A DNA stretch of 64,000 nucleotides, from assembly GCA_947462335.1 (NCBI GenBank), contig OX381707.1, positions 34,771,618 through 34,835,617 on the forward strand. The letters are read 5' to 3'. This DNA comes from Harmothoe impar. Lineage: Eukaryota; Annelida; Polychaeta; Phyllodocida; Polynoidae. Shown piece by piece: positions 9,035 to 55,926 of the stretch. The notes under the pieces were generated by a model. The model ran no database searches. It saw nothing but the letters and a program-made list of their open reading frames with translations, and was not told the origin of the DNA. A program made the position numbers and the translations under genes. How positions within the stretch are numbered: position 1 is the first letter of the stretch; each line of letters opens with the position of its first letter.

Positions 9035-10179
9035 CAAGTGTAAACCCGCTATCAGTCTGGGATGCGGGTAAGTTGGGGATTACTGCAAGATTGGATTGGG
9101 TTGGGCCAGTTATTACTATCTGAGGGGCTTGTGGACAAGTTGTCGGAAGATTGGCTGAGTGGAGGGGTCTGATTAGGAAGATTTTCCCTGTCGACACATC
9201 GATGGTTGAGGAGTATTTGAAACTCTGTTCAGGTTACAGCTTTGTTAAGATAACGGCCATATATGGGAGAAAGAAGCAGACAATGTGTGAGTATAAACCA
9301 CCGGGAATTTATTTATACTTATTAACCCTTCATCACTGGATCTCTGGTAACTTTTTGTGCAATATGTTGGCTTACAGGGCAGACGGGGTTAACCCATGTT
9401 ACTTATTACCGATATTACAAACTTATCTTTTGGGTCTAAGTAACTGTGGTCTATGCCCGGGTGTATACATATATATCCGTATCTAGTAGAGATCTGTTGT
9501 GAAGTCCCATCCCTGTAATTGTATGCAGCAATCTAATATACACACGGTGTATATCTATTTGACTTCTCCATGGGGAAAAAAATCATCGCATCTAGTCGTC
9601 TACTGTAAGAAGCTAATATCGGGTGTAGTCACAAAAAGGGGTCGACTCAAGGAGAAGATGACCTGACCGCCTGAGCTGGTGGCGAGTGTCAAAAACATGT
9701 GTGGTGTGGTGAGCAGCTCTAAGAGTGGCTCAATGATCGATCCAACCAGACGTCCGGGCCGGCGACTTACTGAAGGGGTGCCAACTGTCTCATCCACTGT
9801 GCAAGTGTGATTTCTATGGTTCAGAATCGAGTATACTACTCCAGTCTTGGTTTATTTGAAGAACAAGGAGAGACGTATATAGATAAAGGCCCACAACAGT
9901 GGAGTCTGGTGTATGGGTCTGTGCATATTGGTTCTTAACGAATTAAGCCTGTGTCGTAGCACACGGGGCTGTGGATACGACCCAAGGTCCAACAATTGAC
10001 CAACGATGTAAAAATATAGACGCATCCCCAGCGATAATATGAGTAAAGTGGGCCTTTACATTTATTACACATCGAATCAGTGATGCCAGAGGGCATGGAA
10101 TATAGCTGCACTGTATTTGCGGCGATATCAGTACCTATGCATAGTAACTCTGGTATCGACGATGTGATAACCTATAACC
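9035..10179. other. No gene recognised
   Basis: GAGCAGCTC at 9711-9719. A 111-codon plus frame (9151-9486) and a 65-codon minus frame (9600-9797) have no domain or recognisable composition. No repeats found. Confidence 0.4.
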
Positions 10180-10224
10180 TATTAGTGCTGCAGCATTGGA
10201 GAGCTAGGAGCATTATTTCTGGCG

Positions 10225-10430
10225 ACACCCATCACCAAAAAAGACTAAAGGTCACTATATACCACTGGAAAGCTCTGATCATGGGCTTTTCAGATATGGT
10301 GAGTATTAAAGAAAAGGTTGCGAGGAATCCAAGATGGCCGCCAAAATCCAAGATGGCCGCCAAAATATCAGAATTCCATCTCCAATGACCTAGATATGGC
10401 TTAGAATACTTTTTTAACACTGCCTACCCC
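10225..10430 (+). repeat. Foldback left arm, outer single-copy block
   Basis: Begins ACACCCATCACCAAAAAAG and includes a doubled CCAAGATGGCCGCCAAAAT. The reverse complement at 14790-14986 is almost base-for-base the same, which explains why the same 62-residue translation appears on opposite strands at 10232-10420 and 14791-14979. That translation is a by-product of the repeat, with no evidence of coding. Confidence 0.8.
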
Positions 10431-10770
10431 CCCTAATTTGGACCCAAGGAATTCAATGGTTCTATTGGTTTGTTTCTAAGACAGCTGGTTGCTTAGCAAC
10501 AACTGTTCTAATTGTTTATCTGCCTAGCAACACAGTTTTCCATGGTCCCAAGGTTGATTACAACCATACTTACCCCTTTAAACTGGACCCAAGGAATTCA
10601 ATGGTTCAATTGGTTTGTTGCTAACACAGCTAGTTGCCTAGCAAAGACTGTTATTATTGTTTATCTCCCTAACAACACATATTTCCATGGTCCTGAGGTT
10701 CATTATCAACAAGCATGGCAACAACTAAACAAACTTGATCCAGGCTATTATATGGTTCTAGGTTGATAAA
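10431..10770 (+). repeat. Foldback left arm, about 145-bp tandem units (2 copies)
   Basis: Each unit contains GGACCCAAGGAATTCAATGG, TTGCTTAGCAAC or TTGCCTAGCAAAG, and CCATGGTCC. Two units are present here against four in the right arm. Confidence 0.75.
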
Positions 10771-10782
10771 GAAACAAGCTCT

Positions 10783-11290
10783 GTGGACCCTTCAATTAGC
10801 TCTTGGGACCCCTTCAGCAGCTCTCGAGACCCTGCAAGCAGTTCTGGGGACCCTCTAAGAGGCTTTGTAGGACCTTCCAGTTGCTCTGGGACCCCTTTAG
10901 TGACTCTGCGGAACCCTTCAGCTGCTCTGGGGACCCTAAAAGGGGCTCTGTGGACCCTTCCAGCTGCTCAGTAGACCCCTTCAGTGACACTCGCGACCCC
11001 TTCAGTGACTCTGTGCACCCTCCAAGCAGCTCTGGGGACCTTCCCAGAGGCTTTGGAGGCCCTTCCAGTGACTCTGTGAACCCCTTCAATGACTCTGTGG
11101 ACCCCATCAGGGGACCTCTGCAGTAACTCCCTAGACCCTTATAGTGACTATGGGCACCCCTTCAGTGACTCTGTGGACCCCTTCAGTAACTCTGGGGACC
11201 CTTCCAGCTGCTCTGTGGACTCCTTCAGTGATGCTGGGAACCCCTTCAGTGACTTTGTGGACCTACCAAGCGGACCCCTCAGGATGCTCT
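10783..11290 (+). repeat. Foldback left arm, 21-bp minisatellite
   Basis: Consensus unit close to GGACCCCTTCAGTGACTCTGT, about 24 copies with point variants. Because 21 is seven codons, frames stay open on both strands (translations are heptads such as DPFSDSV and SLKGSTE). These are not evidence of a gene. Confidence 0.85.
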
Positions 11291-11332
11291 GTTGACCTGT
11301 TTATTAGCTAGGAGGTATACATAACAGCTAGC

Positions 11333-11444
11333 TACCCAGTGGGCACAAAAGGCAGTTCAATGTTGAGTCAACGTTGAAACAACATTGAATCAACATTGTC
11401 AACCAGTTTTCAATGTTGATTCAATGTTCTGTGCCCACTGGGTA
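11333..11444. mobile_element. 112-bp palindromic MITE with TACCCAGTGGGCACA ends
   Basis: Perfect 15-bp inverted ends TACCCAGTGGGCACA and TGTGCCCACTGGGTA enclose a core of repeated CAACATTGAATCAAC-like words that are themselves mutually complementary. TA at each end would fit a Tc1/mariner-type target. From memory, similar ends occur in MITEs of other aquatic animals; I could not check this. Confidence 0.8.
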
Positions 11445-11450
11445 CACAGA

Positions 11451-11600
11451 CAGAGGTCTACAATAATCTGTCTGAACGTCAGGTTTCTCCATGAGTGGTG
11501 CAATGGATCGTATCACACGAGGCGGAGCCGAGTGTGATGCGATCCAATGCATCACGAGTGGAGAAACCAGGAGTTCAGACTGATTAGAGTGGATCTCTGT
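11451..11600. mobile_element. 150-bp palindromic element (GTTTCTCCA hairpin)
   Basis: Left CAGAGGTCTAC, TCTGTCTGAAC, GGTTTCTCCA and GATCGTATCACAC pair with right GTGTGATGCGATC, TGGAGAAACC, GTTCAGACTGA and GATCTCTG. The tip is GAGGCGGAGCCGAG. Three more GTTTCTCCA or TGGAGAAAC words at 11688-11790 suggest a related fragment next to it. Confidence 0.7.
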
Positions 11601-11865
11601 ATTTATTTCATGTGATTCTTGATTAAATTCATCAAAATATGCAATTAAAGATTGGGTTTCATAGCTATTTTGGTGACGTCATAGTGGAGAAACAGCCCTT
11701 GGAGAATGAGCACCAGTTTCTCCACGGGGGTGTGGAGAATGGCCATTCTAGTACTTAAGCATAGTAACTTTGTTTCTCCACATGGAATAAATGTGCATGG
11801 CCCCTAAGGGCCCTTGAGCTTCTAATGGTTGGGGATAGGTATTGTAATAAAACTTGGTTGATTAG

Positions 11866-11990
11866 GGACCCTTCCAGTGGCTCCCATCAGCTCTGTGGAC
11901 CCAGTTAGCAGTACTGTGAACCCTTCCAGCGGCTCTGTGGACCCTTCTAGCGCCTCTGTTGACTGCTTCTGTAACTCTGGGGACCCTTCA
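11866..11990 (+). repeat. Detached piece of the 21-bp foldback minisatellite
   Basis: Units such as CTCTGTGGACCCTTC reappear after a 570-bp interruption that contains the two palindromic elements above. The simplest reading is that the left-arm array was split by later insertions. Confidence 0.6.
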
Positions 11991-12040
11991 GCTACAATCT
12001 GGATACTGAGGGCGGCTGTACAGTCGCCCTAGGTACTGGC

Positions 12041-12338
12041 GAAGATGATCTAATCATCCCTGATATAGGGGAAGATGATCTAGTCATCCCTGATGTAGAG
12101 GAAGTTGATCTAGTCATCCCTGGTATAGGGGAAGATCATAGTCATCCCTGGTATAGGGGAGGATGATCTAGTCATCCCTGGTATAGGGGAAGATCATAGT
12201 CATCCCTGGTATAGGGGAAGATGATCAAGTCATCCCTGGTAAAGGGGAAGATCATAGTCATCCCTGGTATAGGGGAAGATGATCTAGCCATCTCTGGTAT
12301 AAGGGAAGATGATCTAGCCATCCCTGGTATAGGGGAGG
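12041..12338. repeat. 30-bp minisatellite in the foldback centre
   Basis: About ten units of GGAAGATGATCTAGTCATCC with a CTGGTATAGG linker. Some units have lost 3-4 bases (GGAAGATCATAGTCATCC). GATGATCTAGTCATC is close to palindromic. The minus-strand frames through it are repeat-derived. Confidence 0.85.
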
Positions 12339-13110
12339 AGTCTTCCTTGGTACCAGCAAAGAGATTTTCAGAGCTAGTAGACATCTACTAATGCCAGGGT
12401 ATGCATACCAAGAGCCTGTCTGGGTGTTTACAGGGCTAGAGGTGGTCGTAGAGTCAGCAGAGGTGTTCACAGAATCAGCAAAGATGCACTCACAGCCACC
12501 TGAGGTGCCACCACCAGGTAGGGGACAGGAATACCTTATTGGGACGTACCACTTTTGTGGTACAGTCCTATCAAGTAGACCATGCCAGTATTGTGGTACT
12601 GTGCATGGTACTGGGGCGAGTGATCATTAGGCCATGACCATGAGCCCATGGCAGGGGCTGCAGCTCCCTCAGTACCTTATCAGTAATCCCAGAACAATGG
12701 GTACTATCTATACAAACACTGAGGGTATGGGTTGGGGAGGAAATCCCATTTTTCCTCATGCTTTTCCCAATTTGTGACCTTACCATTCCATAGGGAGATA
12801 AAACCAAAACGTAGAGTGATACATAATTGCCTAGGCTACTACTCTGTATGTATATATACATCAGCAAATATAACTGAAAATTCGGAAATGGATTTAGCTG
12901 GGTCTCTGTAAGAGTATTTTATGAAAGTGGCATGTTCAATGCATGATATTTGAATAAATATACATGATTGAAATTTGCAAATTGGCTAGTGTGTAGATAC
13001 AGATATCCTCTTTCCAATGGTACCATACATGATATAGAATACATTACCACTATGAGAGAAATCTCATGTATATGCTTATATACACTGATGCTACTTGGTA
13101 GGTCATAATA
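12339..13110. other. Foldback centre, single-copy, no transposase seen
   Basis: A 79-codon plus frame (12391-12630) has three cysteines and histidines near its end but no recognised domain. A 98-codon minus frame (12571-12867) has none. If the element has a coding remnant it should be here, but I cannot identify one. Confidence 0.4.
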
Positions 13111-13162
13111 CTAGTACGCCCTAGATGGTGAGTACAAGTACAGCTCATTTAGGGCGTACTAG
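13111..13162. repeat. Inverted repeat next to the right arm
   Basis: CTAGTACGCCCTA and TAGGGCGTACTAG, a perfect 13-bp inverted pair separated by 26 bases, just inside the right-arm array. Confidence 0.7.
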
Positions 13163-13214
13163 AATAGTGGTTCTGGCCCCAACCTGACCACAGTGTGCAG
13201 AGGTACTCCTGCAA

Positions 13215-14160
13215 TCACCGTAAGGGTCCCTAGAGCTGCTGGAAGGGTCCCAAGAGCCACTGAAGGGGTCCCCAGACCCACTGGAACGGTCCATAGAGCC
13301 ACTGAAGGGGTCCCCAGTGTCACTGAAGAGGTCCACATAGTCACTGAAGGGGTCCCCAGACCCACTGGAACGGTCCACAGAGCCACTGAAGGGGTCCCCA
13401 GACCCACTGGAATGGTCCCCAGTGTCACTGAAGGGGTCCACAGAGTCACTGAAGGGGTCCCAAGAGCCAGAGCAACTGGAAGGGCCTCCAAAGGCTCTGG
13501 GAAGGGTCCCCAGAGCTACTGAAGGGGTCCAAAGAGTCATGAAAGGGGTCCCCAGTGTCACTAAAGGGGTCCCCAGAGCTACTGGAAGGGTCCCTAGAGC
13601 CGCTGGAAGGGTCCCAAGAGCCACTGATGGGATCCCCAGACCCACTGGAACAGTCAACAGGGTCACTGAAGGGGTCCCAAGTATCACTGAAGGGGTCCAC
13701 AGAGTCACTGAATGGGTCCCTAGAGTTAAAGAAGGAGTCCACAGAGTCACTGAAGGGGTGCTCATAGTCACTGATAGGGTCCAGAGAGTCACTGCAGAGG
13801 TCCCCTGACCCACTGATGGGGTCCACAGAGTCATTGAAGGGGTTCACAGAGTCATGGAAAGGGCCTCCAAAGCCTCTGGGAAGGTCCCCAGAGCTGCTTG
13901 GAGGGTGCACAGAGTCACTGAAGGGGTCGCGAGTGTCACTGAAGGGGTCTACAGAGCAGCTGGAAGGGTCCACAGAGCCCCTTTTAGGGTCTCCAGAGCA
14001 GCTGAAGGGTTCCGCAGAGTCACTAAAGGGGTCCCAGAGCAACTGGAAGGTCCTACAAAGCCTCTTAGAGGGTCCCCAGAACTGCTTGCAGAGTCCCAAT
14101 AAGAGCCGCTAAAGGGGTTCCAAGAGCTACTTGAAGAGTCCACAGAGCTTGTTTCTTTAT
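13215..14160 (-). repeat. Foldback right arm, 21-bp minisatellite
   Basis: About 45 units, reverse-complement of the left array. Reading inward from the outer side, the variant units come in the same order as on the left for most of the left array, then this arm continues for roughly 20 further units. The 229- and 217-codon minus-strand frames are products of the 21-bp period. Confidence 0.85.
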
Positions 14161-14164
14161 CAAT

Positions 14165-14789
14165 CTCATGACACAGAATAACCTGGATCTAAGGCTGTTT
14201 AGTTGTTGAAATGCTTGTTGATAATGAACCTCAGGACCATGCAAATATTATGTTGTTAGGGATATAAACAATGAGAACAGCTCAACCAGCTGTGTTAGCA
14301 ACAAACCAATTGAACCATTGAATTTCTTGGGTCCAGTTTAAAGGGGTAAGTATGGTTGTAATCAACCTTAGGATCATGGAAAACTGTGTTGCTAGGCAGA
14401 TAAACAATTAGAATAGCTGTTGCTAAGCAACCAGCTGTCTTAGAAACAAAGCAATAGAACCATTGAATTCCTTGGGTCGAATTTAGGGGGGGTAGGTATG
14501 GTTGTAATCAACCTCAGGACCATGCAAAACTGTGTTGCTAGGCAGATAAACAATTAGAATAGCTGTTGCTAAGCAACCAGCTGTCTTAGAAACAAAGCAA
14601 TAGAACGATTGAATTCCTTGGGTCGAATTTAGGGGGGGTAGGTATGGTTGTAATCAACCTCAGGACCATGGAAAACTGTGTTGCTAGGCAGATAAACAAT
14701 TAGAACAGTTGTTGCTAAGCAACCAGCTGTCTTAGAAACAAACCAATAGAACCATTGAATTCCTTGGGTCCAAATTAGGGGCGGTAGGC
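14165..14789 (-). repeat. Foldback right arm, about 145-bp tandem units (4 copies)
   Basis: Units start near 14225, 14350, 14495 and 14640, each with GTTGCTAGGCAGATAAACAA, AAGCAACCAGCTGTCTTAG and CCATTGAATTCCTTGGGTC. The inner three are nearly identical and the innermost is diverged. Confidence 0.8.
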
Positions 14790-14986
14790 AGTGTTAAAAA
14801 AGTATTCTAAGCCATATCTAGGTCATTGGAGATGGAATTCTGATATTTTGGCGGCCATCTTGGATTTTGGCGGCCATCTTGGATTCCTCGCAACCTTTTC
14901 TTTAACACTCACCATATCTGAAAAGCCCATGATCAGAGCTTTCCAGTGGTATATAGTGACCTTTAGTCTTTTTTGGTGATGGGTGT
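14790..14986 (-). repeat. Foldback right arm, outer single-copy block
   Basis: Reverse-complement partner of 10225-10430, with few differences. It ends GGTGATGGGTGT, followed after a short diverged stretch by AGTGCTGCAGCACT. Confidence 0.8.
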
Positions 14987-15022
14987 TCAGCTAATTAGCC
15001 TTCAGTGCTGCAGCACTATATA

Positions 15023-16050
15023 GCATGCACAAAATGACCATACATCATAGATCAGAATTGAGAGGTGGTCTTGTCAGTTGGAGCCCCATGGAACAGGCGG
15101 TCACCACCAGCTGTTTTTACGATAATGCCCCTTGGTGGTGTATTTTTAGATCAGACCTATTGGAGGACGCGTGTAATAAATACACAGTAGGTCTGTGGTA
15201 GAAGGTCGGTGCTAGGTGAGTGTCGACAAGGGGATGAGTGCTTTACTATGAGTTCACGCGGGCTCGTGAGAGAAGAATGCACTGGTTTCCTATATCTAGG
15301 CTTTTCTGGGCTTTGTCCAACGTGAAGATATATCCAAATTATATGATATAACACCGATGCCGGATGGATTTCCCCAGGAAACCACATTCACGCCAGTTCT
15401 CCAATTGCACTGTTTACTTTTAAATTCTGGGATGAATTAAATGGGGAAAAAAACATGGACAGTAAAACCACCTGATATGTACTACACTTCTGAGTTCCCT
15501 TATTCTCCATCGATCCGGTAAAGAGTAGACATAATAGCATTATAGGAAGACGAAACACATAGAAAAGATATACGTTCAACAGCCCTGTTTCAACGATTCT
15601 CAGAGAAACTAGCGTGGTTTCCTTTGAAAAACTGAGACTATGCAGTGTGACTGAGCACCTGTATGTGTCTGATTTTCATGTCTAATTAGTGGATCCTCTA
15701 TTACAATACCACACACAAAATGAGTTCTGAATTAACTTGCCTAACAATTAGCATCAAGCAATAATTAGGAAACTATTTAAGAAGTATCGTGAAATAATTA
15801 TCACAGATTTATTTTGGTGAGTATAAAAAGCCTTAAATTCATGGGGAACTTAGCAGCCTTTGACGCATGTAGATGGCTCCAGTAAGTTATTGAAATACAA
15901 AGACTAGATGATGCTATAATCGGAGTTATGTCTCTCTGTTTTTAAGAGAGCTTCTATACGTGTTCTGCCAACGAGCTGTACACAATACCCAATTAATATT
16001 CATGTGTGTTTAACTATGGGGCTACTTTATAGCTTCCCTTGTCCTTTTTA
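15023..16050. other. No gene recognised
   Basis: Two minus-strand frames of 76 and 63 codons (15157-15387, 15388-15579) lack domains. AT-rich single-copy sequence follows. Nothing else found. Confidence 0.4.
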
Positions 16051-18074: not shown

Positions 18075-18585
18075 CGTTCACACAAACTCTAATGACCTTC
18101 TCGGTCCTACTCCACACAAATTCTAATGACCTTCCCTGCCCTACTCCACACAAACTCTAGTGACCTTTTCTGTCCTACTCAACACAAAATCTTATGACCT
18201 TCCCTGTCCTATTCCACACAAACTCTAATGACCTTCTCTGTCCTACTCTACACACACTGTAATGACCTTCCCTGTCCTACTCCACATAAACTCTATTGAC
18301 CTTCCCTGTCCTACTTCACACAAACTGCAATGACCTTCCCTGTCCTACTCCACATAAACTCTATTGACTTTCCCTGTCCTACTCCACGTAAACTCTATTG
18401 ACCTTCCCTGTCCTACTCCACATACACTCTATTGACTTTCCCTGTCCTACTCCACACAAACTGTAATGACCTTCCCTGTCCAACTACACACAGACCCTAT
18501 TGACCGTTCCTGTCATACTACAGACAACCCCTGATGACCTTCCCTGTCCTAATCTACACAACCCCTAATTAGTTTCCCTGTCCAG
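18075..18585. repeat. 34-bp minisatellite, about 15 units
   Basis: Unit close to CACAAACTCTAATGACCTTC followed by CCTGTCCTACTCCA. Units differ by point changes and the array decays towards 18585. Confidence 0.85.
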
Positions 18586-25244: not shown

Positions 25245-25816
25245 CACCACTGTGTGTTAAGTCACTAAGTAGTGTATGGGGATGCCCCTATGAAACAGGC
25301 TCACTAGTGTACCACTGTATGTTCAGTAAGTGAGTAGTATACGGGGATGCCCCTATGAAGCGGGTTCAGTAGTATACCACTGTTCAGGCAGTAAGTAGTA
25401 TATGGGGATGCCCCTATGAACCAGGTTCCGTAGTGTACCACTGTTCAGGCAGTAAGTAGTATATGGGGATGCCCCTATGAACCAGGTTCCGTAGTGTACC
25501 ACTGTTCAGGCAGTAAGTAGTATATGGGGATGCCCCTATGAACCAGGTTCCGTAGTGTACCACTGTTCAGGCAGTTAGTAGTATATGGGGATGCCCCTAT
25601 GAACCAGGTTCCGTAGTGTACCAATGTTCAGGCAGTAAGTAGTATATGGGGATGCCCTTATGAACCAGGTTCTGTAGTGTACCACTGTTCAGGCAGTAAG
25701 TAGTATATGGGGATGCCCTCATGAACCAGGTTCCGTAGTATACCACTGTTCAGGCAGTAAGTAGTATATGGGGATGCCCTTATGAACCAGGTTCCGTAGT
25801 GTACCACTGTTCAGGA
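25245..25816. repeat. 61-bp minisatellite, about 9 units
   Basis: Units carry TTCAGGCAGTAAGTAGTATA, TGGGGATGCCCCTATGAA and CCAGGTTCCGTAGTGTACCA. The first two units are diverged, the rest nearly identical, and the array stops abruptly at 25816. Confidence 0.9.
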
Positions 25817-31049: not shown

Positions 31050-31576
31050 TCATCTTGGCAGCCATCTTGAAAATTACCTGGATCAAAAAATCGGAGCCTA
31101 CAAATGGATTCTACACCCCAGAAAACCCTATTATACATGTGTCATACAAGGAAATCAGACAATCTTGAGTTTTTGGTGGCCATCTTGGCAGCCATCTTGG
31201 AAATATCTCCGATTGAAAATCTGAGCCTGAAAATAGATTCTACATCCCAGAAAACCCTACTTTCCATGTATCACACAAGGAAATCAGACAATCTTGAGTT
31301 TTTGGTGGCCATCTTGGCAGCCATCTTGGAAATTTCTCGGATTGAAAATCTGAGCCTGAAAATGGATTCTACATCCCAGAAAACCCTACTATCCATGTAT
31401 CACACGAGGAAATCAGACAACCTTGAGTTTTTGGTGGCCATCTTGGCAGCCATCTTGGAAATTTCCCGGATTGAAATTGTGAGCCTGAAAATGGATTCTA
31501 CATCCCAGAAAACCCTATTATCCATGTATCACACAAGAAAATCAGACAATCTTGAGTTTTTGGCAGCCATCTTGGC
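31050..31576. repeat. 129-bp tandem repeat, four units
   Basis: Unit starts recur at 31104, 31233, 31362 and 31491, exactly 129 bp apart. Each contains TGGATTCTACATCCCAGAAA and two nested CATCTTGGCAGCCATCTTGG words. As 129 is 43 codons, a 179-codon plus frame stays open across the array and into the following purine tract. Differences between units mostly change the amino acid, which speaks against coding. Confidence 0.9.
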
Positions 31577-31900
31577 AGTCAGAGGGAGGAGGAGGGGGCA
31601 GAAGGAGGGAAGGCAGAGGAAGGGCAGAGGGAGGAGAAGGTAACAGGAAGGAGGAAAATGGGGTAGAGTTGGGGGGGAGGGGTAGATGGGGTAGTAGGAG
31701 GGGGCATAGGAAGGAGGAGAGGGTAGAGGGAGGAGGAGAGGGCAGAGGGGGGAGGAGAGGGCAGAGAAAGGAGGGAGGAGGAGGAGAGGGCAGAGGCAGG
31801 AGGAGGAGAGGGCAGAGGCAGGAGGAGGAGGAGAGGGCAGAGGCAGGAGGAGGAGGAGAGGGCACAGGGAGGCACAGGGAGGAGGAGGGGGGCACAAGGA
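31577..31900. repeat. Purine tract (GGA/GAG-rich), about 320 bp
   Basis: Almost pure A and G on the plus strand, built on GGGAGGAGGAG and AGAGGGCAGAGG words. Such tracts can adopt triplex or G-quadruplex structures. Open frames on both strands are compositional. Confidence 0.9.
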
Positions 31901-34266: not shown

Positions 34267-34497
34267 CCTCGTTTTGGTTAACATAGGTGTCAATGGGATC
34301 ACCCTGCCCAGCTGCCCACCGCTGTGGTAGAACCATTTTTTACAACTTCATAGCACACACACACACAACACGTTGCAGAACTGCGGATGTACCGAGTACA
34401 CGTGTATAAGTTAGCTGCGCCCTCATGCTAGTTCTGTCCTCCTGAACCTTCCTGCTTAGTTTGACATTCAAGTCCAAGATCGTCCTTACACAGGGCA

Positions 34498-35295
34498 TAC
34501 CCGGGGCCCTAATCTGATATAGGCTGAGGGATGGGAGAGGGACACATTGACATACAGTACAAATGTACAAGACAGGCATTACACGGGGCCCTATCCTGAT
34601 GTAGGCTGAGGGATGGGAGAGGGACACATTGACATACAGTACAAATGTACAAGACAGGCATTACACGGGGCCCTATCCTGATGTAGGCTGAGGGATGGGA
34701 GAGGGACACATTTACATACAGTACAAGACAGGGCCTTACATGGGGCCCTATCCTAATGTAGGCTGAGGGAGGGGAGAGGAACACATTGACATACAGTACA
34801 AGACAGGCCTTACACAGGGCCCTATCCTGATGTAGGCTGAGGGAGGGGAGAGGGACACATTGACGTACAGTACAAGATAGATCTTACACAGGGCCCTATC
34901 CTGATGTAGGCTGAGGGAGGGGAGAGGGACACATTGACATACAGTACAAGACAGGCATTACACGGGGCCCTATCCTGATGTAGGCTGAGGGAGGGGAGAG
35001 GGACACATTGACATACAGTACAAGACAGGCCTTACATGGGGCCCTATCCTGATGTAGGCTGAGGGAGGGGAGAGGGACACATTGACATACAGTACAAGAC
35101 AGGCCTTACACAGGGCCCTATCCTGATGTAGGCTGAGGGAGGGGAGAGGGACACATTGACATACAGTACAATACAGGCCTTACACAGGGCCCTATCCTGA
35201 TGTAGGCTGAGGGAGGGGAGAGGGACACATTGACATACAGTACAAGATAGGCCTAACACGGGGCCCTATCTTGATGTAGGCTGAGGGAGGGGAGA
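34498..35295. repeat. 74/82-bp minisatellite, about 11 units
   Basis: Units contain GGGCCCTATCCTGATGTAGG, CTGAGGGAGGGGAGAGGGAC and ACATTGACATACAGTACAAG. The first two are 82 bp because of an extra AATGTACA-type insertion after TACAGTAC; the rest are 74 bp. Minus-strand frames (34340-34784, 35044-35259) are repeat products. Confidence 0.9.
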
Positions 35296-35804
35296 GCGAA
35301 GGGCTGCTCTCATCCATAAGTCAAGTGGCGGTCATGGAGACATCAATATGGCGGTCGATTTTAATAAGCACTTGGGATAAGACTAGGCGGCAGTAAAGAA
35401 GCCATGATGATAAGTAGTAGTGAGGACTCGGGTGATGTTATTGATCGCCGCTGGTTGCTGAGTCTGGGTCTGGAAGGACACCAGCGAAAGGACACCAGCA
35501 GGCACACGCCGGGACCCAGCGACGACGAGGACACATCGCTTTTACCCGGCAAGACTAACGTGGTAATAATACGGCTACCGACAGTCATCGGCAACAAGCG
35601 GCAGACGTGCTCAAGGTGACGCCGCCATGACAGCACACGTCTGTCAAGGTTACATGGCTAGCATTTCTTAACATGGGTCTCTATAACATGCTGCAGCAAT
35701 GCACATGTCGAGTATCACATGGCCAGTGGTACTCAACACATGGAGTGTTCACACTTGTATGAATCATATTGCTTCTATTCTAACTATATAACGATAAACT
35801 TGTT
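35296..35804. other. No gene recognised
   Basis: Overlapping 71- and 91-codon frames on opposite strands at 35361-35636 with no domain. Confidence 0.4.
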
Positions 35805-39580: not shown

Positions 39581-40439
39581 AGAGGTCCCGCTAGTCAGGA
39601 ATACCGGGCACCCCGACCTCCAAGTATCTCCTACCCGTTCCAAAAGGTTATGACATTCACCATTGAGATATACAGCGCACTGTGAATAATGTGTGACGGG
39701 GCCAGATATTCTAAGAATGGCAGTCCTATAGGATAGAGCAGACGTGGGGACCTTGGCAATTCCTCTGTAAGCCCTTGAAACATTCCCTTACACCGGCCGG
39801 GTACTGGCTGGAAGGGGATCAGTCGGTAATCGGCCTAGGATGATCCTCAGCTGACTGATGCATGTGGGGGAGGGGTCTGGTCTGGATTTAGTAAGTGGGG
39901 GTTACAGATTGACTTGTGGGTATATTGTTGGGTGGAGGTTTTGGGGTGGTGGGTATTGGTCAATCAGGTTAAACGTTAGTGGTGGGAGTGGGTCATATTG
40001 AGATTAGAGGCAGGATTGAGTTTGACCCGAGTGTCCCTCTGTAAGATTCTGCTGTGGGGTTTACGTCTGTGTGCAGTGATAGGGAGAAGGGGGGGGGGGG
40101 TAGCTGAGATAATCCAGGCCTCATCTTACAGTCCTAGTTAATCTTCCTCCAGCCCTGCCTCATCCCCATCAGGTGGTCCTGATTGTATCCTACCCCCCTT
40201 CCCCCACCCCCGCCCATTCATTAACCATTCAGGCACCACAGCCCTACCCCTCCTCCTACAGACCCCACCAGCGTCCAGGCTACCCCATCATTACTATAGA
40301 ACCACCATCAAAGGCCCCCAGGGCGCTACCAATTTTCTCCCAAAAAGTAACACCTAAGTGGAGAAAAAACACACAAACCAATGTTTCCGAAATCCCCACG
40401 CAAAAAGAGCTTAAAAGCAATGTTAAAACATAGAAATTA

Positions 40440-40870
40440 TTATGGAACGTGATCGCGCCATTAATTCCATTCTGGCTTAGTTTTTTTACGCTAATTACCC
40501 CGAACCTAAGGCTATTTAATAAGAGAGGTGGAATAAAACCCTGATGTCACTATAGTGCGTCCTCATCAAGGCCTATTTACATAGCATTTTAAATGTGATG
40601 AAATACATGGTCAGCCGACGGAACTTAAGTCCAAGACCGGGGCCCTGGCTTTCAAAAGTGTCAATTATTTCACAATGGAAAGACTGGAATAATTGACATG
40701 TCTCCGCGTGGTTCATATCGACTGGCGCTACCCGTTTTATTAAGGGACAGCGCAGGAGCCTGCTCCCCCGCAGGGCAACCAGTATGGTATTGCGTCCAAT
40801 ATTTCCTCTGCCGTGGGGCGTTGGGGCTCCTAAAGGAGGGAGCTCTCCTTAAGAATGCAGTGTGTGGAGA
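40440..40870. promoter_or_regulatory. Candidate conserved non-coding block
   Basis: About 430 bp differing from 55500-55926 at only a handful of bases. It holds AT cores such as GCGCCATTAATTCCATTCTG and GCTAATTACC, and an inverted pair TGTCAATTATTTC (40659-40671) / GGAATAATTGACA (40686-40698) with homeodomain-type cores in opposite orientation. Low change plus this composition suggests regulatory DNA, but two copies alone cannot prove constraint. Confidence 0.3.
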
Positions 40871-41179
40871 GGATTAGGTATACGGTGCTATAGGTGGGGT
40901 TATGGGGTGCCCCCCCCCCCACACCCCCTATCCTCTATACCTGACCACCTCCCCATGTGCAGGAGAGAGGGAGATCAAACTCTACACCATACCTCCCTAC
41001 CCACAGGCCAGCACAGCTCCTCCGACTTAAAGCGTCATTCTCATTAAAACTCCACCACCATCCATTAATTAGAATTTAGACATGGTGCCGTGTGTGTGCG
41101 GGGGCGTGGGTTGTTTTGTTTGGGGTTGTAAACAAGACCTTGATGAGGGGTATTTGTTTGTTAAAACGGTCAGAACCTG

Positions 41180-41490
41180 GGACAAATATACAGTAGAAAG
41201 GTAGATATAAGTGGGGTGTGTATAGGTATACGCACAAAAGAACAGCACGTATAAAGGCTATACAATATATACAATATATATTATGATAATAATGTATACC
41301 CTTATACCTACTGTACGTTAAAACAGTAGGTATAAGGGGTATATAATATATTATACCTGCCGTTCTACTGTACCTATTACATCTACTAGTATACACATCC
41401 CTTATATCTAGAGTAGGACAGTAGGTATAATGGGGGTATAGGTAGTGTAGAACACTATGTATAAAGGGTGTATACAGTATAAGGGGTTTG
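41180..41490. repeat. AT-rich internally repetitive segment
   Basis: GGTATAAGGGGTATA-like words and their complements recur. CTTATACCTACTGT (41301-41314) and ACAGTAGGTATAAG (41323-41336) form a perfect 14-bp inverted pair. The copy-2 equivalent (about 56250-56550) differs by several small indels. Minus-strand frames here are repeat-derived. Confidence 0.65.
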
Positions 41491-41784
41491 GGGTAGGGTG
41501 TAACAGCAGGAGGAGGGGGAAGGGCCTTGAGCCAGGAGGGGTGGCAGCAGGGAGAGAAGTGGTAGCCATGATTAGGCGGTGTGTTGTGGCAAGGGCTGGC
41601 GGGGATGGACCATCTTTCATATTACTGTCTCACCGCTCCGTGATCCATCCCAGGTCTGTGCTGCCTCATACCCAACCAACAACTAGGCCCAACAAATCGC
41701 ATGTTTCCAGTCACCCAACCCTATCCTCTGGGGGGGGGGGGGGGGGGGGCATCTTCATCTCTTTTTTTAGTCATTTTTTTAAAG

Positions 41785-42259
41785 TTAAAGCGGCTGGTGC
41801 ACCCAGCCTTTACTGTTGCTAACGGCGTGGCCACTAGCAGGCCTTATATAATCAAGAAACCAAGCTCCTCCAGGCCTGGTCCAGACTTTCCCCTTCCTCC
41901 AGGGTTGTCTCCTCCCCCATCCACCATTTCTTGGCTGTTTTGTTGGCTATATGTGTTAAATCATAACATTACATAATATAGACACATTATAATCTGTCCA
42001 TCTCTTTGTAGATGTAACCCACCCACTCCTTATGACACCTCCTCACAGCAGGAGGTCTGAGCTGCTCCCAAGGATTTTGGGGGCAGATACCACCTGCTGT
42101 GACCCCTGCTGAGCAGAATAATTGTAGATACCTTTCATCTTCTGCCTGGACTTTGACCTAAGATTATGTAACCCATCATAACCTTAGTACCTGAATCACC
42201 CACAAGAGGGGGTGTCAATGTGAGCAGCACTAGCGACTTGGGTGCACCAGCACCTTTAA
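41785..42259. mobile_element. 475-bp transposon insertion present only in copy 1
   Basis: Ends TTAAAGCGGCTGGTGCACCCA (41785-41805) and TGGGTGCACCAGCACCTTTAA (42239-42259) are inverted repeats with 2 mismatches in 21. At the matching place in copy 2 (near 56830-56845) the sequence passes directly from TTTTTTTAAAGT to the shared A-rich stretch, so copy 2 is the empty site. AAGTTAAA occurs at both edges, and TTAA lies at both ends. The target duplication is therefore ambiguous (TTAA, or an 8-9-base AAGTTAAA). It has no convincing coding capacity (frames below 120 codons, no domain), so it is a non-autonomous element. Confidence 0.85.
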
Positions 42260-42289
42260 AAGTTAAAAACAAAACACAAAAAAAACTAG

Positions 42290-43414
42290 AACCGAAGAAG
42301 GGTGCGAACCTACCTAGCTTTTTTCAACATGTTACCAGAATCCCCCCGCCCCCATTTGGGCAAGTGCCTTAAACAACAAAGCTTGCTATGCCTACAGGAT
42401 AGCACATTTATAATACAGACCCATTAATAAATTCTGTCTCTTGATACAAATTCCCAATATGATCTCTCTCATGCGCTTTCAATAAATAGAGCGAAAGGAG
42501 AATACTCATGTTATTTCTTTTTTTACCCTATCTAATCCCCTTCCTATCGCCATATTGCTTAAGTCAGAGAGTACACAGAGAGGGGGCATGCTTTGGCCGT
42601 GGCAGCACACAGAGGCGTCGTGTGAGGAGGGCGGACGTGTGGGAGGGTAAAGGAGCCACTCTGAGCACCTCACAAGTTCAAACAGACTGAGCACTCTGCT
42701 AGTGCCTAGTCATCACCTCACTTTCAACAAGCCAAGCTGCCTCCAAACCAGGACCACCCTTCTACTCTAAGTCTCAGAGGCTGCACACTCAACCCCCTGT
42801 CTATTCTGTCCTGAGAGGAGGGCTGGTGCCACCTGTGGCGGTCAATTACCTCTCTGTACTTATACAGCCATCCTTATCCATAGGTGGATAATGTATTTTA
42901 ATTCATGTGACTGGGTTGATTCAAGGCCCGAGTATCTGCTTGGAGATTGATGTATTACTAAAGATTTGAATCCCTCAGAGAGGCTTTCTGATCACTCCTC
43001 TGCTATAGAATGCCCTCTGTCGTCTTGCACTCATAAGTCCTAGTTTGCTTGCCTTGTAAACATGTCACCACTACAATACCTGTTTCCTGCACACGTGTTC
43101 CAGATGTTATACAGTATCAGCATACAGCCAAATAATACTATCAACTTGGGGCGATAGGCTATATATACCCACATGTATCTATAGCTTCTTTTGAGTGTAC
43201 AGAAGCTAGGGGTAGCACTTACTAGTAACTTTGATGTCTTGGCAGGGAGTAGAGTATACAACCCGCCCCAAGGAAAGCAAGGCATACACACATGACTGAA
43301 GACAGCCTCTAAATGAGCAGCTCACTTGGCTTCCCGGGAGTCGTTATCACCTCGGGAGTGGGTAGGATTGCTTTTGAGGAAGACGGACATATTACCTAAA
43401 GTGGAGCTGAACAG
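42290..43414. other. No gene recognised (copy 1)
   Basis: Short frames only. Sequence around 42541-42860 is almost unchanged in copy 2. GAGCAGCTC at 43315-43323. Confidence 0.4.
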
Positions 43415-43646
43415 TTAGCCCTTTAAGGACAGCACAAAACTTAAATACTTCAATAAACAGTGTAAGAGGCCAGTGCTGCATTCACCCATCATGACGAACC
43501 TTCAGGCGTGTGCATGTACCAACCCCATAGGGTCAGCATGATGTTTGAATGCAGCACTGGCGAGTTATTCGCCGAGGCTGCATTCATGCATTATGACGAC
43601 AAAGGGCATAATTTATTAAAGCACTAGGCGGCCCTTACAGGGTTAG
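43415..43646. mobile_element. TTAA-family MITE with TTAG flanks (copy 1)
   Basis: TTAG at 43415-43418 then CCCTTTAAGGACAGC. The right end is GCGGCCCTTACAGGG then TTAG at 43643-43646. The right inner hairpin (GGCGAGTTATTCGCCGAGGC) is intact and the left shortened. Present at the same place in copy 2 (57992-58223), so it predates the duplication or allele split. Confidence 0.85.
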
Positions 43647-43799
43647 GGTAGCATTTATTGATGTAGGGAGTGGCTCTGGTGAGCAGCTCACTGTAAATGG
43701 TATCACTGCGGCACAGGCAGCCCCTCAGACGTCATAAGTAGGTCACACTAATATCAACACACAAGTGGTTCAAGACAGGGGGGGGGGGGAGTAACACTA

Positions 43800-43890
43800 G
43801 TTTAAACCACAGCGGAGGGGTAAGACAAAGGAGGTCGCACCTTGGTTATTCCGCATACCCTGACATAACCTTACTGCTGTGGTTTAAAAC
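43800..43890. repeat. Hairpin with GTTTAAACCACAGC arms
   Basis: GTTTAAACCACAGC (43800-43813) pairs with GCTGTGGTTTAAAAC (43876-43890). Copy 2 has it at 58377-58467. Confidence 0.7.
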
Positions 43891-43907
43891 AGATACAAGT
43901 AGACAGT

Positions 43908-44021
43908 GGTTATGAAAAGGGGAGTAGGATTAACCACAGCAAACCGGTAGGGCGACTTAGGCTTCGCCTTCGTCTGCCCCCACCAGGCTGCTGTGGTTAC
44001 TTCTATTTACCTTTCATAACC
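43908..44021. repeat. Hairpin with GGTTATGAAAAGG and TAACCACAGC arms
   Basis: GGTTATGAAAAGG pairs with CCTTTCATAACC at the outside, TAACCACAGC (43931-43940) with GCTGTGGTTA (43990-43999) inside. The core contains GACTTAGGCTTCGCC. It shares AACCACAGC with the preceding hairpin, so the two may be one composite element. Copy 2 is at 58479-58591. Confidence 0.7.
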
Positions 44022-44500
44022 TTAGTCTATCTGTTACATAACCATGTTAAAACGGTTATACAACCATATGACGTTCTATTATCAACATCCTAGTGTATTG
44101 ATCGCATGGTGACCTCGCCCTCCCTTTGGCACTCGCTTATCCTTAACCTAAAAGCACGGGATAATATAAATCCTGAAGCGCCCAAGCCTAGTACGGCACT
44201 TCCCAAGCTAACCAGACCACCATACACTACTGGGGTGTTTATAATAAAGCGTTATATTTGGTTTTATCGAGAATACCAAAAAACATAGGTCAATCTCAGT
44301 TAACACAAACTGCCCCAGTGCTTGTTGCAGGGCAACTTTATTGGAATCTCTATTGTCGATAAATACAGCCATCTCTCGTCTGAGATGAGCTATATGTAGT
44401 TGATGAGCCATAACTGACCTGGGACTGAGTACGGTTTGATGTGGCATACAGGGATATTCACAGATGTTAGAGCACAGCGCTATTACTCCTCCTCGGCAAC

Positions 44501-44746
44501 CTAACCATTTAAGGGACGCATAGTGCTTATTGTACTTGGTTGACATTATGCACAAAAGTAGTCCTGGCCAGTAACTCGCCAGTGCTGCATTCATGAATTG
44601 GTTGATGCACTTCTGAAGTATTGGCATGATGCATAAATGCAACACTGGAGAGTAAGTTAATCACTAGGGCTATAATCATGTACCATACCGAGCAAGGGCA
44701 TAGTGCACATAGTAAAGCACCATGCGACCCATCCTCAAAGGGGTAA
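44501..44746. mobile_element. TTAA MITE, worn (copy 1)
   Basis: CTAACCATTTAAGGGACGCATAG at the left, ATGCGACCC...CAAAGGGGTAAC at the right. Inner GTAACTCGCCAGTGCTGCATTC is clear. Flanks no longer match. Confidence 0.75.
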
Positions 44747-45706
44747 CTCAAATGTTAGTATTTATAGCCCAAGGTCCTAAACTGAGCTGAGCAGCTCGGA
44801 GTAGCTCATAAACCGCTGCGAGCTGCTCACCCACCTTAAACCGGCCAGTGTTTTTACACACACCCCAAGGTGCAATAGCTGACGAGGGCCGGCGGGCGGA
44901 AAGGTTGGGAAGGTTAGACCCCAGCGCAGCAGAGCTTTATTTGTATTCTTCACCACCACTCGCGATCCAATCCCAGTTGAACCTATCACCCCATAAAGAA
45001 TTTCTTCTCTGATAGGCCTGGGTGTCCCCTAGCCCCTCCTCATCTCCCCGGCCGTATGGCATCGTTATATCACGGCAAAAGAGCAGGCACCGGCCGGCCA
45101 TGGTCGCCTGAGGGACGCATTTGTTTATTACTACCTCCACCCGCTAGAGATCCATATTGCTAGTAATTATAAATTGATTTATGAACATCATGCTCCACTT
45201 ATTTTTTACTAAGCCTTTCTTCTCCTTTCCAGTGTTTAGCGGAAGACATGTTGCCCATGGGCTTGAGGGTGGGCGGCTGTAAGCATATTATTAACGAGCG
45301 TGGGAAGAGTGATGTTATCAATACCAAAGATGTATATATGTGTGTGTGGAGGGGAGGGGTGTAAGAATTAAGCCTGAGATATTGATTGGTACTACATGGA
45401 CACATGCCACTTAGCGAATGTCTAATTCGGAAAGTTCATGTAACATGCTTCTAGTGTAGGTCAAGGGCATGAGTCGAGGACACAATAAATCACCAATTAA
45501 ATCCACCCTCACCTGCCCCCATCTCCCCCAAACGCATATTAAGAGTGCATTAAAACCCGTCAATACACTTAACCCCCATCCCCCCTCACCCCCTCAACCA
45601 AGGCCCCACAAAGTAGGTGTGGTGGGGTAGTGGTTACTGCCAATCTGGTCATCAAGCATAACTTACACTCGGCGTATGTGTATGGGGGCGGGGAGAGTGT
45701 ATCATG
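44747..45706. other. No gene recognised (copy 1)
   Basis: GAGCAGCTC at 44789 and GAGCTGCTC at 44820. Minus frames of 67-70 codons (44777-45140) persist in copy 2 with a frameshift-like change in one of them, so coding is unlikely. Confidence 0.4.
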
Positions 45707-45814
45707 GGTCAGCATGATGCTTGAATGCAGCACTGGCGGGTCACTCACCAGGGCTGCATTCATGCATCATGCCGACCAATCCCATATCACATTAAAGCAC
45801 TCTGCAGCCCCTGA
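45707..45814. mobile_element. TTAA MITE, right half only (copy 1)
   Basis: GGTCAGCATGATGCTTGAAT, GCAGCACTGGCGGGTCACTC and CATTAAAGCACTCTGCAGCCC correspond to the right arm. No left half. Confidence 0.75.
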
Positions 45815-46109
45815 AGCCTCAGTGTAGCGGCCATGGCCGTGCTGGATGGAGCAGGCAGGTAGATGAGGTCATGTCCGGGTGCTGGTAAGTGTAGGGGGTT
45901 GTAAATAACTCAGTGCTGCAAGACGGATGACCTCTTACTAGGCCAGGGCCCTGCTGCACGGCCGGGTAGAGTGACTAGGTGCTGGAGGAGGGACGCTGGG
46001 TGCAGACAGCAGCGGCTGGTGGTAGTAGAGGCAGGGTTTGGCAGCCATGTGGCTGAGCTGGCAAAGCTCACACAGCTTCCAGCACCAGTATGGAGTCATG
46101 GATTGAATT

Positions 46110-46391
46110 TGAATTATTCAAAACATTACCGTTGAATTAGCTTCAATTTGTTATTTTTGTACCCCATTTTATTTCGAACTGGCCTCGCAAATATTAGCCT
46201 AGAGAGTGGATTCCACTCTAGCCGATTTATTCCCCGATAACGACCCGACCGGGGCCGGATGGAAAATCAGAGGTTTTTATTATCTTGAATATTTCAAATT
46301 GTCCATCCAGTCCCGGCCAGGCCTTCATCTGGAAAGAAATCGGTTACAGTGGAATCCAGCTTTAAATCAATGGATTGAACAGGAAAAAGGA
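46110..46391. other. AT-core region with an open frame, not coding
   Basis: A 159-codon frame begins at 46206 and runs to 46685. In the first third, the comparison with copy 2 shows six amino-acid-changing differences (for example Tyr to Asn, Tyr to His, Leu to Phe) and one silent one. That is not what selection on a protein gives, so no gene is called. Confidence 0.5.
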
Positions 46392-46720
46392 CAGCATAGG
46401 ACAGCATATGCTGCTGCTATTGTGTGGCATTGTAAGATGCCCTTGTACACGCCTGTGTTACGTCCACCATTGTGTCTGACAACTGCAATCAGAACGGGTT
46501 CATCGCAAGGCCGCGGCTCGAGTTCCATGGCGACAAACGCAATTCATTTATTTCATAAAAGCCAACGCCACGAACACTTGGCTGATGTTCGATGGCCGCC
46601 TGATCAGGAATTCACCTCACAATGCCGCTCCTCTTCAATAAGAATGCCTATGAATAAAAGAAACACTTCTGGAATCGAGCCCTGAAATCGAGGGGCTGCT
46701 GCTCGAGAGGCAAAGAAATG
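46392..46720. promoter_or_regulatory. Block identical in both copies (about 330 bp)
   Basis: I find no difference from about 60985-61305 across this stretch, while flanks on both sides differ. It contains CAATTCATTTATTTCATAAA, GTTCCATGGCGACAAACGC and TGATCAGGAATTCACC. It could be conserved non-coding DNA or a gene-conversion tract. A coding reading is not supported by the neighbouring pattern. Confidence 0.35.
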
Positions 46721-46775
46721 TGTCTTTTTGCACGTGCTGTGACAATGGAGCAGTGCTGTGTCCTTGTGGGGATGG

Positions 46776-47001
46776 TTAACCCTTTCACTGCAGCTATCGA
46801 AGCAATTTCAATTTTTATCGTTATGCTAAACTAATATCCCAATGCTGCATTCATGCATCATGGAGATCCTGCAGGGTTGATTAATACACCCCTGGAGGGT
46901 TGGCATGGTGCAGCAATGCAATGATACCAGAGAATAACTCCTGCGTTGGTGCATGCATAATGATAAAACAAATTGGCATGATGCGGTCGTTAAAGGGTTA
47001 A
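46776..47001. mobile_element. TTAA MITE, TTAA on both flanks (copy 1)
   Basis: TTAA at 46776-46779 then CCCTTTCACTGCAGC. The right end is GCGGTCGTTAAAGGG then TTAA at 46998-47001. Inner ATGCTGCATTCATGCATCATG is retained and the rest eroded. Confidence 0.75.
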
Positions 47002-47615
47002 CATTGGTAGGACTCCCTGCAGTAATCTCCAGCCACCTTGTTAGCCACACAGCACTCTGTCCCCCATCTCACTAGTCTCTAAGCCTCTTAGCCACACGGA
47101 CCGCTGACCCAGACTGCTGCCGGCTGGTGAGCTGCACATTATCTCCTTTTCAGATATAGTCACTTGTTTCCACTGCCCTGGGTCTTTGTCTCTGAAACCC
47201 TACCTATAATATGCCCCGGGTTGATTGAAGTAGGTGAGTGAGTGTAGAGGCTGTTGTCTGTATGATGTAGTCCCATCACATGGTATAAACACTTCTATTT
47301 GTAATGAAGCCCATAACCATACCCTTCTCTGACTCCCAACTATTGGACAGGGCCTGAATTGTGTATCAGAGACGCAACTCTCAGTCAACAAAATGTAGGA
47401 AATCTTGATAGTTTGGTCAATTCTCTGTAGGAAATTGATATAATTTAATACATGAATTCTCGCTTAAAAGTGGGAATTCCTGCAGAAGTAGATTGGTAAT
47501 ACACAAGCCCACTAACTCACACAGTTGATATATGAGATCAGTTTCCAACATTGCAAACACATACACATACAGTGCTCACAGTTTCTCCACCCCGAGCACC
47601 TTCACTTAAATCTCA
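47002..47615. other. No gene recognised (copy 1)
   Basis: Includes a member of the GGAATTCCTGCA dispersed family at about 47430-47510. Confidence 0.4.
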
Positions 47616-47880
47616 CCAGTATAAACAATGCAGCCCTTCACATTCCCACGTCTAAAACAACGCTACCCACCAGTCTCCAAATTCTACTTCCGCTTCGGTT
47701 TAATAGACGACCGCACCGCCGCAGTCCAAACTGGGGGCGTTTCCAATTAAAACATTCCATTCCCAGGGTAGCCATGACACCTGACTTGTTTACCTCCAGT
47801 GTGCTAAAGGCCACCGGTTCGTCACCCAGACTACAACATGAGGGCTTCATGACAAAGTAACCAATGTACTCAACTTGCTG
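47616..47880. other. Slowly changing block with a 40-codon frame
   Basis: Only two substitutions versus 62210-62475. A plus-strand frame ATG at 47629 reads about 40 codons (Arg/Tyr/Phe-rich, containing RYPPVSKFYFRFGLIDD) to a stop. Of its two differences from copy 2 one is silent and one changes Pro to Ser. It is too short and unrecognised to call a gene. Alternatively it is regulatory DNA (GGCGTTTCCAATTAAAACAT). Confidence 0.25.
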
Positions 47881-48654
47881 AAGCTATCTAACTATTCAGT
47901 AAAAGTAATGGTATATACACCAGCAATATAAACAGTATAGAAAAGTAATCTGGTTCTTATCTTAAGTCTCTTTTCAGTGCAAACACTAGCATTCCCATGG
48001 ACAACACTTTGCCAATAAGGATTAACATTTAGCCAGTGACTGGGTTGGTAATAGGATTTGGTGTTGGTGCTGGGGCTGAATAGGTAAGCTGTATTGGTGA
48101 GGCAGTGCTGGCCATAACCAGGGCTACTGCCAGGGTTTTGTGATGGCCGGACCTATGTGACCTGACTACTAGGTGATCTGCTTATAGACAGGAAATCAAC
48201 AACCGTCCCCAGCGCCCTCCACCCTCCCACCCCACCCAAACCCAGGACGACGACCTCGCCCCACACACCCCCACCCAACCCCACACCCCAACCCAGCCCC
48301 AGGCCCGACCGGACAGGCAATAGATCATACATCCCGTAGCAGTGCTACAGCCCCAATATAGCCAGCCGGCCAGCCTGCCTGCAGCAAAATGGCACTTGTT
48401 ATATTCAGGTGGTTTAAACAATAGCAGGGGTGGTGATTCTAATCATGAGTGTAGTGGGTTAACACATTCCTGGATTCGTTTCATCACTTGGTGCTTACTG
48501 AAATGCTTTTTTTTTTTGATGCATCATATTTCCATTCATGCATAATATTTGTAAATTAGAAGGTACATGAATATTTTCCTCATCTCTTGATACATGTACT
48601 ACATTGTGTGCATAGGTCAAATGTACCAGGACTCTTTTATGTATACACTACAGG
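47881..48654. other. No gene recognised (copy 1)
   Basis: C-rich low-complexity DNA at 48205-48300 differs in length from copy 2. Nothing else found. Confidence 0.4.
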
Positions 48655-49130
48655 TACATGTTCCTCATGTCTATATACTACTTAAAATGCAACTACCAGG
48701 GACTGTTCCGATTTCTATACACTATTTACACTACAAGTAGCAGGATCTGTTCCCATTTCTATATACTACTAACATTACATCTAGCAGGGCCTGTTCCCAA
48801 TTTCTGTTCATTACATGTACTTACACAGCAACTACCAGGGTCTGTTCCCCATTACTATATACTACTTACACTGAAAGTAGCAGGGCCTGTTTCCCATTTT
48901 TATATACTACTTACATTACATCTAGCCGGGCCTGCTCCACATTTCTATATACTACTTCCACTGCTGCTCAATGTATGTTCCCCATTTCTATACACTATTT
49001 ACCCTGCAAGTACCAGGTCCTGTTCCCCATTTCTATACACTACTTACACTGCAAGTATCAGGGCCTGCTCCCCATTTCTATACACTAGTTACACTGCAAG
49101 TACCAGGGAATCACTACTTACGATACATGT
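48655..49130. repeat. 45-bp minisatellite, short allele (copy 1)
   Basis: Degenerate units of TTCTATATACTACTTACA...AGCAGGGCCTGTTCCC lead into three cleaner units with GCAAGTACCAGGGCCTG at about 49006, 49051 and 49096. Since 45 is 15 codons, a 193-codon frame stays open. It is not a gene. Confidence 0.85.
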
Positions 49131-49273
49131 TCTATATACTTCGATATCAATGAACATACAGGGAATAATCTACTACATAGGCCTACGGGGCATAATCTAC
49201 TACATACAAGACATTCACTTGTCCACAGATAATATCTAAATTGGACAATATAATATAAGGGAAAACTGCCTCC

Positions 49274-55499: not shown

Positions 55500-55926
55500 A
55501 TTATTATGGAACGTGATCGCGCCATTAATTCCATTCTGGCTTAGTTTTTTTTACGCTAATTACCCCGAACCTAAGGCTATTTAATAAGAGAGGTGGAATA
55601 AAACCCTGATGTCACTATAGTGCGTCCTCATCAAGGCCTATTTACATAGCATTTTAAATGTGATGAAATACATAGTCAGCCGACGGAACTTAAGTCCAAG
55701 ACCGGGGCCCTGGCTTCCAAAAGTGTCAATTATTTCACAATGGAAAGACTGGAATAATTGACATGTCTCCGCGTGGTTCATATCGACTGGCGCTACCCGT
55801 TTTATTAAGGGACAGCGCAGGAGCCTGCTCCCCCGCAGGGCAACCAGTATGGTATTGCGTCCAATATTTCCTCTGCCGTGGGGCGTTGGGGCTCCTAAAG
55901 GCGGGAGCTCTCCTTAAGAATGCAGT
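55500..55926. promoter_or_regulatory. Candidate conserved block, copy 2
   Basis: Counterpart of 40440-40870. The homeodomain-type inverted pair is preserved base for base at 55724-55736 and 55751-55763. Confidence 0.3.

Follow-up and report, generated by a model that had tools for sequence, protein, structure and literature searches.

A dispersed element family with layered Foldback-type arms and 3-bp target duplications, very probably a non-autonomous DNA transposon, in the annelid Harmothoe impar

Is a pair of long inverted arms built of tandem repeats the body of a transposon, or a satellite duplicated locally in inverted orientation? We analyzed a 64,000-nucleotide stretch of the Harmothoe impar genome (contig OX381707.1, C4:34771618-34835617; hereafter, the window), in which a sequence-only reading had placed a Foldback-type element at 10180-15022 and had named the absence of genomic copies with the same ends as the sign of a local satellite duplication. 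Such copies were found, their termini numbering in the hundreds. Our analysis indicates that segment 10183-15018 (4836 bp, TAGTGCTGCAGCA...TGCTGCAGCACTA) is very probably a non-autonomous DNA transposon of the cut-and-paste type that inserted recently and belongs to a dispersed family with Foldback-type layered arms.

The host assembly (1,511,831,793 bases in 736 contigs) was searched with the end block at 10225-10430, and 40 of the 872 first-look candidates were scored. These 40 matches, two of which were the window's own ends, showed 98–100% identity, lay on 14 contigs and included 8 inverted pairs approximately 3.9–4.8 kb apart. Pattern searches allowing up to two mismatches revealed 299 left-type and 193 right-type termini in the genome, while reversed control patterns gave 0 matches. 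Twenty regions were fetched, making 21 loci together with the window; the left terminus was present in 20/20 of the fetched loci and the right one in 18/20. Both ends were placed in 19 of the 21 loci; L019 and L023 were excluded from the count of 3-bp duplications because their second end was not found in the fetched stretch. A search with this end block had been proposed in the sequence-only reading as a way to other copies, their target duplications, and a coding relative: the first two were recovered, while a relative coding for a transposase was not established.

The 3-bp flanks were identical in all 19 elements with both ends read, the window element included. In the window, comparison of flanks among copies identified the duplication as TAT, at 10180-10182 and 15019-15021, so that the element together with its flanks agrees within one base with the limits originally drawn. 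The flank test, in which 8 elements were entered in both orientations, gave matches in 27/27 rows; in 20,000 shuffles, the mean was 2.85 and the maximum was 10. At lengths of 4 to 8 bp, none of the rows (0/27) matched in register. At its middle position, the duplication had A or T in 19/19; T occupied the first position in 12/19 and A the third position in 12/19, and a complete TWA (W being A or T) was found in only 6/19 (3 TTA and 3 TAA). Beyond these 19, a 13.6-kb copy was flanked by GAA on both sides, and L034, as judged by eye, by TTA on both sides.

Two longer candidates for the duplication, the 12-bp direct repeat AGTGCTGCAGCA and the pair CTATTAG/CTATATAG, were rejected. Comparison with the other copies placed TAGTGCTGCAGCA within the element, as its own end, partly palindromic, and gave a duplication of 3 bp.

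That this structure arose from a satellite duplicated locally in inverted orientation has next to no probability. The arms are indeed composed of satellite-like units, the window is rich in minisatellites, and no second copy of the element was found within its 64 kb. This explanation is nevertheless refuted because hundreds of termini of the same two types are dispersed genome-wide between varied flanks and the 3-bp duplication is present in 19/19 elements.

What, then, is the element built of? Blast, repeat searches, and alignment confirmed the three mirror-ordered layers that had been noticed in the arms. The inverted arms extend over 10179-11262 and 15023-13653 and match each other at 1007/1053 aligned sites overall. 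Their identity is patchy: approximately 99% at 10229-10628, 89% at 10629-10828, 99% again at 10829-11128, and lower past 11129. From outside to inside, each arm consists of a single-copy end block, 145/146-bp units, and 21-bp units. Elements of the family start with TAGTGCTGCAGCATT (CAGTG in L009), and the window element ends with GTGCTGCAGCACTA, the mirror image of the start. Just inside the outermost 13 bp, the two ends diverge (left 10196-10231, right 14987-15003), and this subterminal difference is repeated in the same manner across the 19 copies with both ends. The left end block (10183-10422, plus strand) carries the left-type subterminal stretch (TTGGAGAGCTAGGAGCATTATTTCTGGCG), and the right one (14785-15018, minus strand) a shorter, right-type stretch. 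The end block also contains 2.2 copies of the 19-bp repeat AATCCAAGATGGCCGCCAA (10326-10366, plus strand; mirror copy at 14845-14885).

The next layer consists of two 145/146-bp units in the left arm (10442-10731, plus strand) and four in the right arm (14187-14769, minus strand). The near-palindrome GTTGCTTAGCAAC (or GTTGCTAAGCAAC) was found in 4/6 of these units, with 0 matches elsewhere in the window. The 21-bp layer of the right arm is continuous (13214-14148, minus strand). In the left arm, it is split into two parts (10777-11296 and 11866-11996, plus strand) by a spacer carrying a 452-bp insert (11336-11787), which comprises two hairpin sequences resembling miniature inverted-repeat transposable elements (11333-11444 and 11450-11600). 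The stretch leading into the middle domain (11788-12072) was present in 17/19 complete copies.

The middle domain (11997-13213) contains a 30-bp minisatellite (12041-12336) and has no protein match. The earlier statement that the centre holds no recognisable transposase was borne out, as no Pfam family reached the cut-off in the six frames of 10101-15102. No Rfam family matched the window, and a protein search with the open reading frame (ORF) of the 21-bp array gave no result.

The copies differ in the number of their repeat units. The 145-bp units numbered 3 in the left and 3 in the right arm in 14/19 elements; the counts were 3 + 2 in L010 and L017, 2 + 3 in L012, and 2 + 4 in the window element and L009. 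In the window element, the first unit of the left arm looks like a fusion of right-arm units 1 and 3, an indication that two complete units were lost or gained. In the 21-bp layer, motif counts per strand were strongly unequal between the arms in most copies: 6–8 versus 33–64 in 11 elements, and from 15–29 to 6–47 in the subfamily of the window element (the window, L009, L010, and L016-L018). The short copies L021 and L022 had 0/0 and 1/13, respectively. The 452-bp insert is carried by the same subfamily, in L018 at least partly, and is lacking in 11/19 complete copies; L021 and L022 are too deleted for its state to be judged.

The closest fetched copy is L009 on C14, which differs from the window element by 35 mismatches over 4825 sites and four length differences, one of them 21 bp, and is flanked by GTA instead of TAT. 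Such near-identity on different contigs shows recent movement of the family. The partner arm of the same element was nearest, ties included, for only 11/38 arms, and same-side arms of sister copies were often closer. Homogenisation of the arms within each element was therefore not retained as a general rule. Constant conversion between the arms is not needed, since partner arms are generally not the closest relatives; recent spread of shared masters explains much of the pattern of arm similarity.

From these data, the following course may be proposed. A transposase supplied from elsewhere would recognise the ends (TAGTGCTGCAGCA...) and excise the element. The excised element would then be joined to an N-(A/T)-N target opened by a cut with a 3-bp stagger, and repair would leave the 3-bp duplication. 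The number of arm units could shift through slippage or unequal exchange among the units. By analogy with Galileo, the repeated units may offer extra binding sites, and the near-palindrome GTTGCTTAGCAAC/GTTGCTAAGCAAC of the 145-bp units would be an obvious candidate for such a putative site. Several points weigh against the cut-and-paste transposon. The copies were chosen by their resemblance to the window end block, which inflates the similarity seen among them, and those scored were a fraction of the candidates (40 among 872). In addition, no autonomous copy that would name the transposase and the superfamily was established among the copies read.

Where might the transposase come from? We read, whole or in part, seven copies longer than 5 kb, and none of them was established as its source. 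The terminus lists give mismatch-free places only, and the long copies were paired by eye from them. Unrelated ORFs were found in 4/7 of these copies: a pair of ORFs, 972 and 505 aa long, that by eye are non-long-terminal-repeat (non-LTR)-like (C2:34095274-34106940); a 343-aa ORF, Penelope-like by eye, with a GIY-YIG match below threshold only (C8:15734105-15739943); an unrelated 1377-aa ORF in a 17-kb copy, of which 9.9 kb was read (C6:21900575-21917634); and a 1022-aa ORF (L036:2828-5893) together with a NADAR-domain ORF in the 13.6-kb copy (C6:67677140-67690759). L023, L032, and L033 contained extra or repeated DNA, and no ORF longer than 111 aa was present in them outside the family sequence. 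The NADAR-domain ORF of the 13.6-kb copy (L036:7722-8999) was a Pfam match; by eye, a NADAR-domain ORF also adjoins an apparent non-LTR retrotransposon gene at C2:34095200-34107020 (L030, L031).

Right-type termini lacking a listed partner were considered as a separate subfamily; this idea was dropped, as partners may be hidden and the partner end of L034 was found. At C12:17977850-17982444, what looks like a 4.6-kb element bears a right-type end on both sides rather than one end of each type.

The 1022-aa ORF of the 13.6-kb copy deserves separate consideration, as it lies intact between the ends of the family. Its GC content by codon position (0.507, 0.331, and 0.433) is coding-like, and its length far exceeds that of the longest ORF in 300 shuffles (maximum of 189 aa). 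Among the 45 scored of 116 candidates, it had 36 genome matches, including itself, with 20–100% identity; a 55-aa fragment reached 75%, and behind it the best of the others were 49 and 51% identical. No Pfam family matched the protein, PDB yielded no meaningful match (best E of 0.18), NCBIfam gave a single match far below the cut-off, and prokaryote and viral collections returned no result. An AlphaFold2 model of residues 385-830, computed with no alignment, had a mean predicted local distance difference test (pLDDT) score of 37 and was not used.

That this protein is the transposase of the family is improbable, in spite of its position, its composition, and its genome matches. On either side of the ORF lies one copy of a 21-bp inverted pair, TA(G/A)TACTAGCATTACCAAAGC, with one mismatch and with CTAG beside both copies, which looks like the ends of a nested transposon. 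As judged by eye among the termini listed, none of the best other matches of the ORF lies within 100 kb of termini of the family. Because the enclosing pair with its CTAG starts a few bases from where the family homology stops, the ORF is most likely part of a second transposon nested in this copy. The nesting itself is not clean: behind the right copy of the 21-bp pair, the sequence is not that of the family, which fails to resume cleanly. The protein is probably the transposase of a separate, diverse lineage of DNA transposons not covered by Pfam.

Outside the host assembly, a 65-aa predicted protein on a 7,525-bp ENA contig (P0001) matched the translated left end of the element at 31/43 residues. 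Its residue 1 falls on the GTG at 10185, which lies within the terminus; one difference was found in the first 22 residues, and the similarity ends before the 19-bp repeats. This match indicates that a relative of the left end is present in another sequenced sample; its translation as a protein is probably a gene-prediction accident. A second protein, P0002 (5,990-bp contig), shares only the other end of the P0001 protein and did not align to the window. The prokaryote collection, searched with one DNA pattern, and the viral collection, searched with two, gave no result, and neither did the end-block peptide in either of them.

Can the scar and the ends nevertheless indicate a superfamily? Elements of the hAT superfamily and P elements make 8-bp duplications, in contrast to the 3 bp found here. 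CACTA/EnSpm elements start with CACTA and end with TAGTG, whereas ours start with TAGTG and end with CACTA. PIF/Harbinger elements make duplications of the form TWA, from which 13/19 of our duplications depart. We consider it an evenly balanced proposition that the ends belong to a superfamily, for example AcademX or PIF/Harbinger, that makes 3-bp duplications and whose autonomous element was not found. The 3-bp duplication falls within the 3 or 4 bp given for AcademX in PMC10045372 and in a passage on iMITEdb, and a duplication of 3 bp is given for PIF/Harbinger in PMC2213677. The duplications also lean towards TWA at their first and third positions; however, the full form occurs in a minority of the elements, and the TAGTG...CACTA termini could not be assigned to a described family. 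It is rather unlikely, yet conceivable, that these elements form a TAGTG...CACTA transposon group of their own, with a 3-bp N(A/T)N duplication, independently evolved Foldback-type arms, and a transposase of an undescribed superfamily.

Several other features of the window were recorded. A direct duplication of approximately 9 kb (39699-49253 and 54753-63990) showed 94–96% identity in long pieces, and a run of N lies near 54.5 kb; the duplication possibly represents two haplotypes placed side by side by the assembler. Tandem Repeats Finder reported 58 overlapping rows of minisatellites, for example, at 18079-18583, 25255-25815, 34490-35296, and 53694-54224. A 129-bp tandem array at 31051-31578 has a unit bearing CATCTTGGCAGCCATCTTGG, which is close to the 19-bp repeat of the transposon end block. 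No clear exon emerged when codon usage was crudely scanned across the 64 kb.

How does this element, very probably a cut-and-paste transposon, compare with the known Foldback-type systems? It shares with them mirrored tandem-repeat arms and dispersed copies with target duplications. Drosophila FB and sea-urchin TU elements also carry layers of repeats in their inverted arms, although their unit lengths differ from those found here, and their duplications are approximately 9 and 8 bp, respectively. The sequence-only reading had likened the architecture to that of FB, TU, and Galileo: the layered arms hold, while the likeness goes no further than architecture, given the 3-bp duplication and no sequence or transposase link having been found.

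Tetris of Drosophila virilis resembles our element in its flanking, tandem-repeat, and inner domains, its non-coding middle, its variable number of units, and the fact that no autonomous copy is known; it differs in its units of approximately 220 bp and its 8–10 bp duplications, and the two are likened by description, not by sequence (PMC4079207). Galileo likewise has long tandem-repeat arms with repeat numbers unequal between them, whereas it belongs to the P-element superfamily, makes 7-bp duplications, and has repeats of approximately 210 bp in its F subfamily (PMC3573991). Its repeats are reported as extra binding sites (PMC3573991, PMC4079207). Tm1 of root-knot nematodes has composite arms and terminal stretches that are unlike at the two ends, as in our element; in contrast, its units are 13–15 bp long, its duplications are 8–10 bp, mostly 9, and its transposase is of the Mutator type (PMC3169594).

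True membership in one of these groups (FB/MULE, Tm1, Tetris, or Galileo) is very improbable, even though their layers follow the same order as in our element and they too have long arms, unit numbers that differ between the arms, and a non-coding middle. Their duplications of 7–10 bp stand against the 3 bp found here: neither the 8–10 bp of the FB/Tm1 type nor the 7 bp of Galileo or the 8 bp of P elements was observed. We failed to find a MULE, Mutator-type, or P-element domain by Pfam in the window copy or in the scanned parts of L029, L036, and L038, the other long copies having been checked for ORFs only. The element is not filed with Tetris, Galileo, or Tm1 because their duplications are 8–10, 7, and 8–10 bp in length, and the family is likewise placed outside FB/MULE. 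Among the open-licence papers listed on Foldback-type elements and 3-bp duplications, none named the family or its combination of traits in the title or the beginning of the abstract.

The Galileo paper describes long arms of composite build as a trait on which different transposons have converged (PMC3573991). The layered plan of our element, combined with a 3-bp scar unlike the 7–10 bp of Galileo, Tetris, and Tm1, supports such convergence and suggests that arms of this kind are favoured irrespective of the transposase. In this young and numerous family, whose copies vary in unit number, the growth and loss of units and exchange between arms can be traced within one genome.

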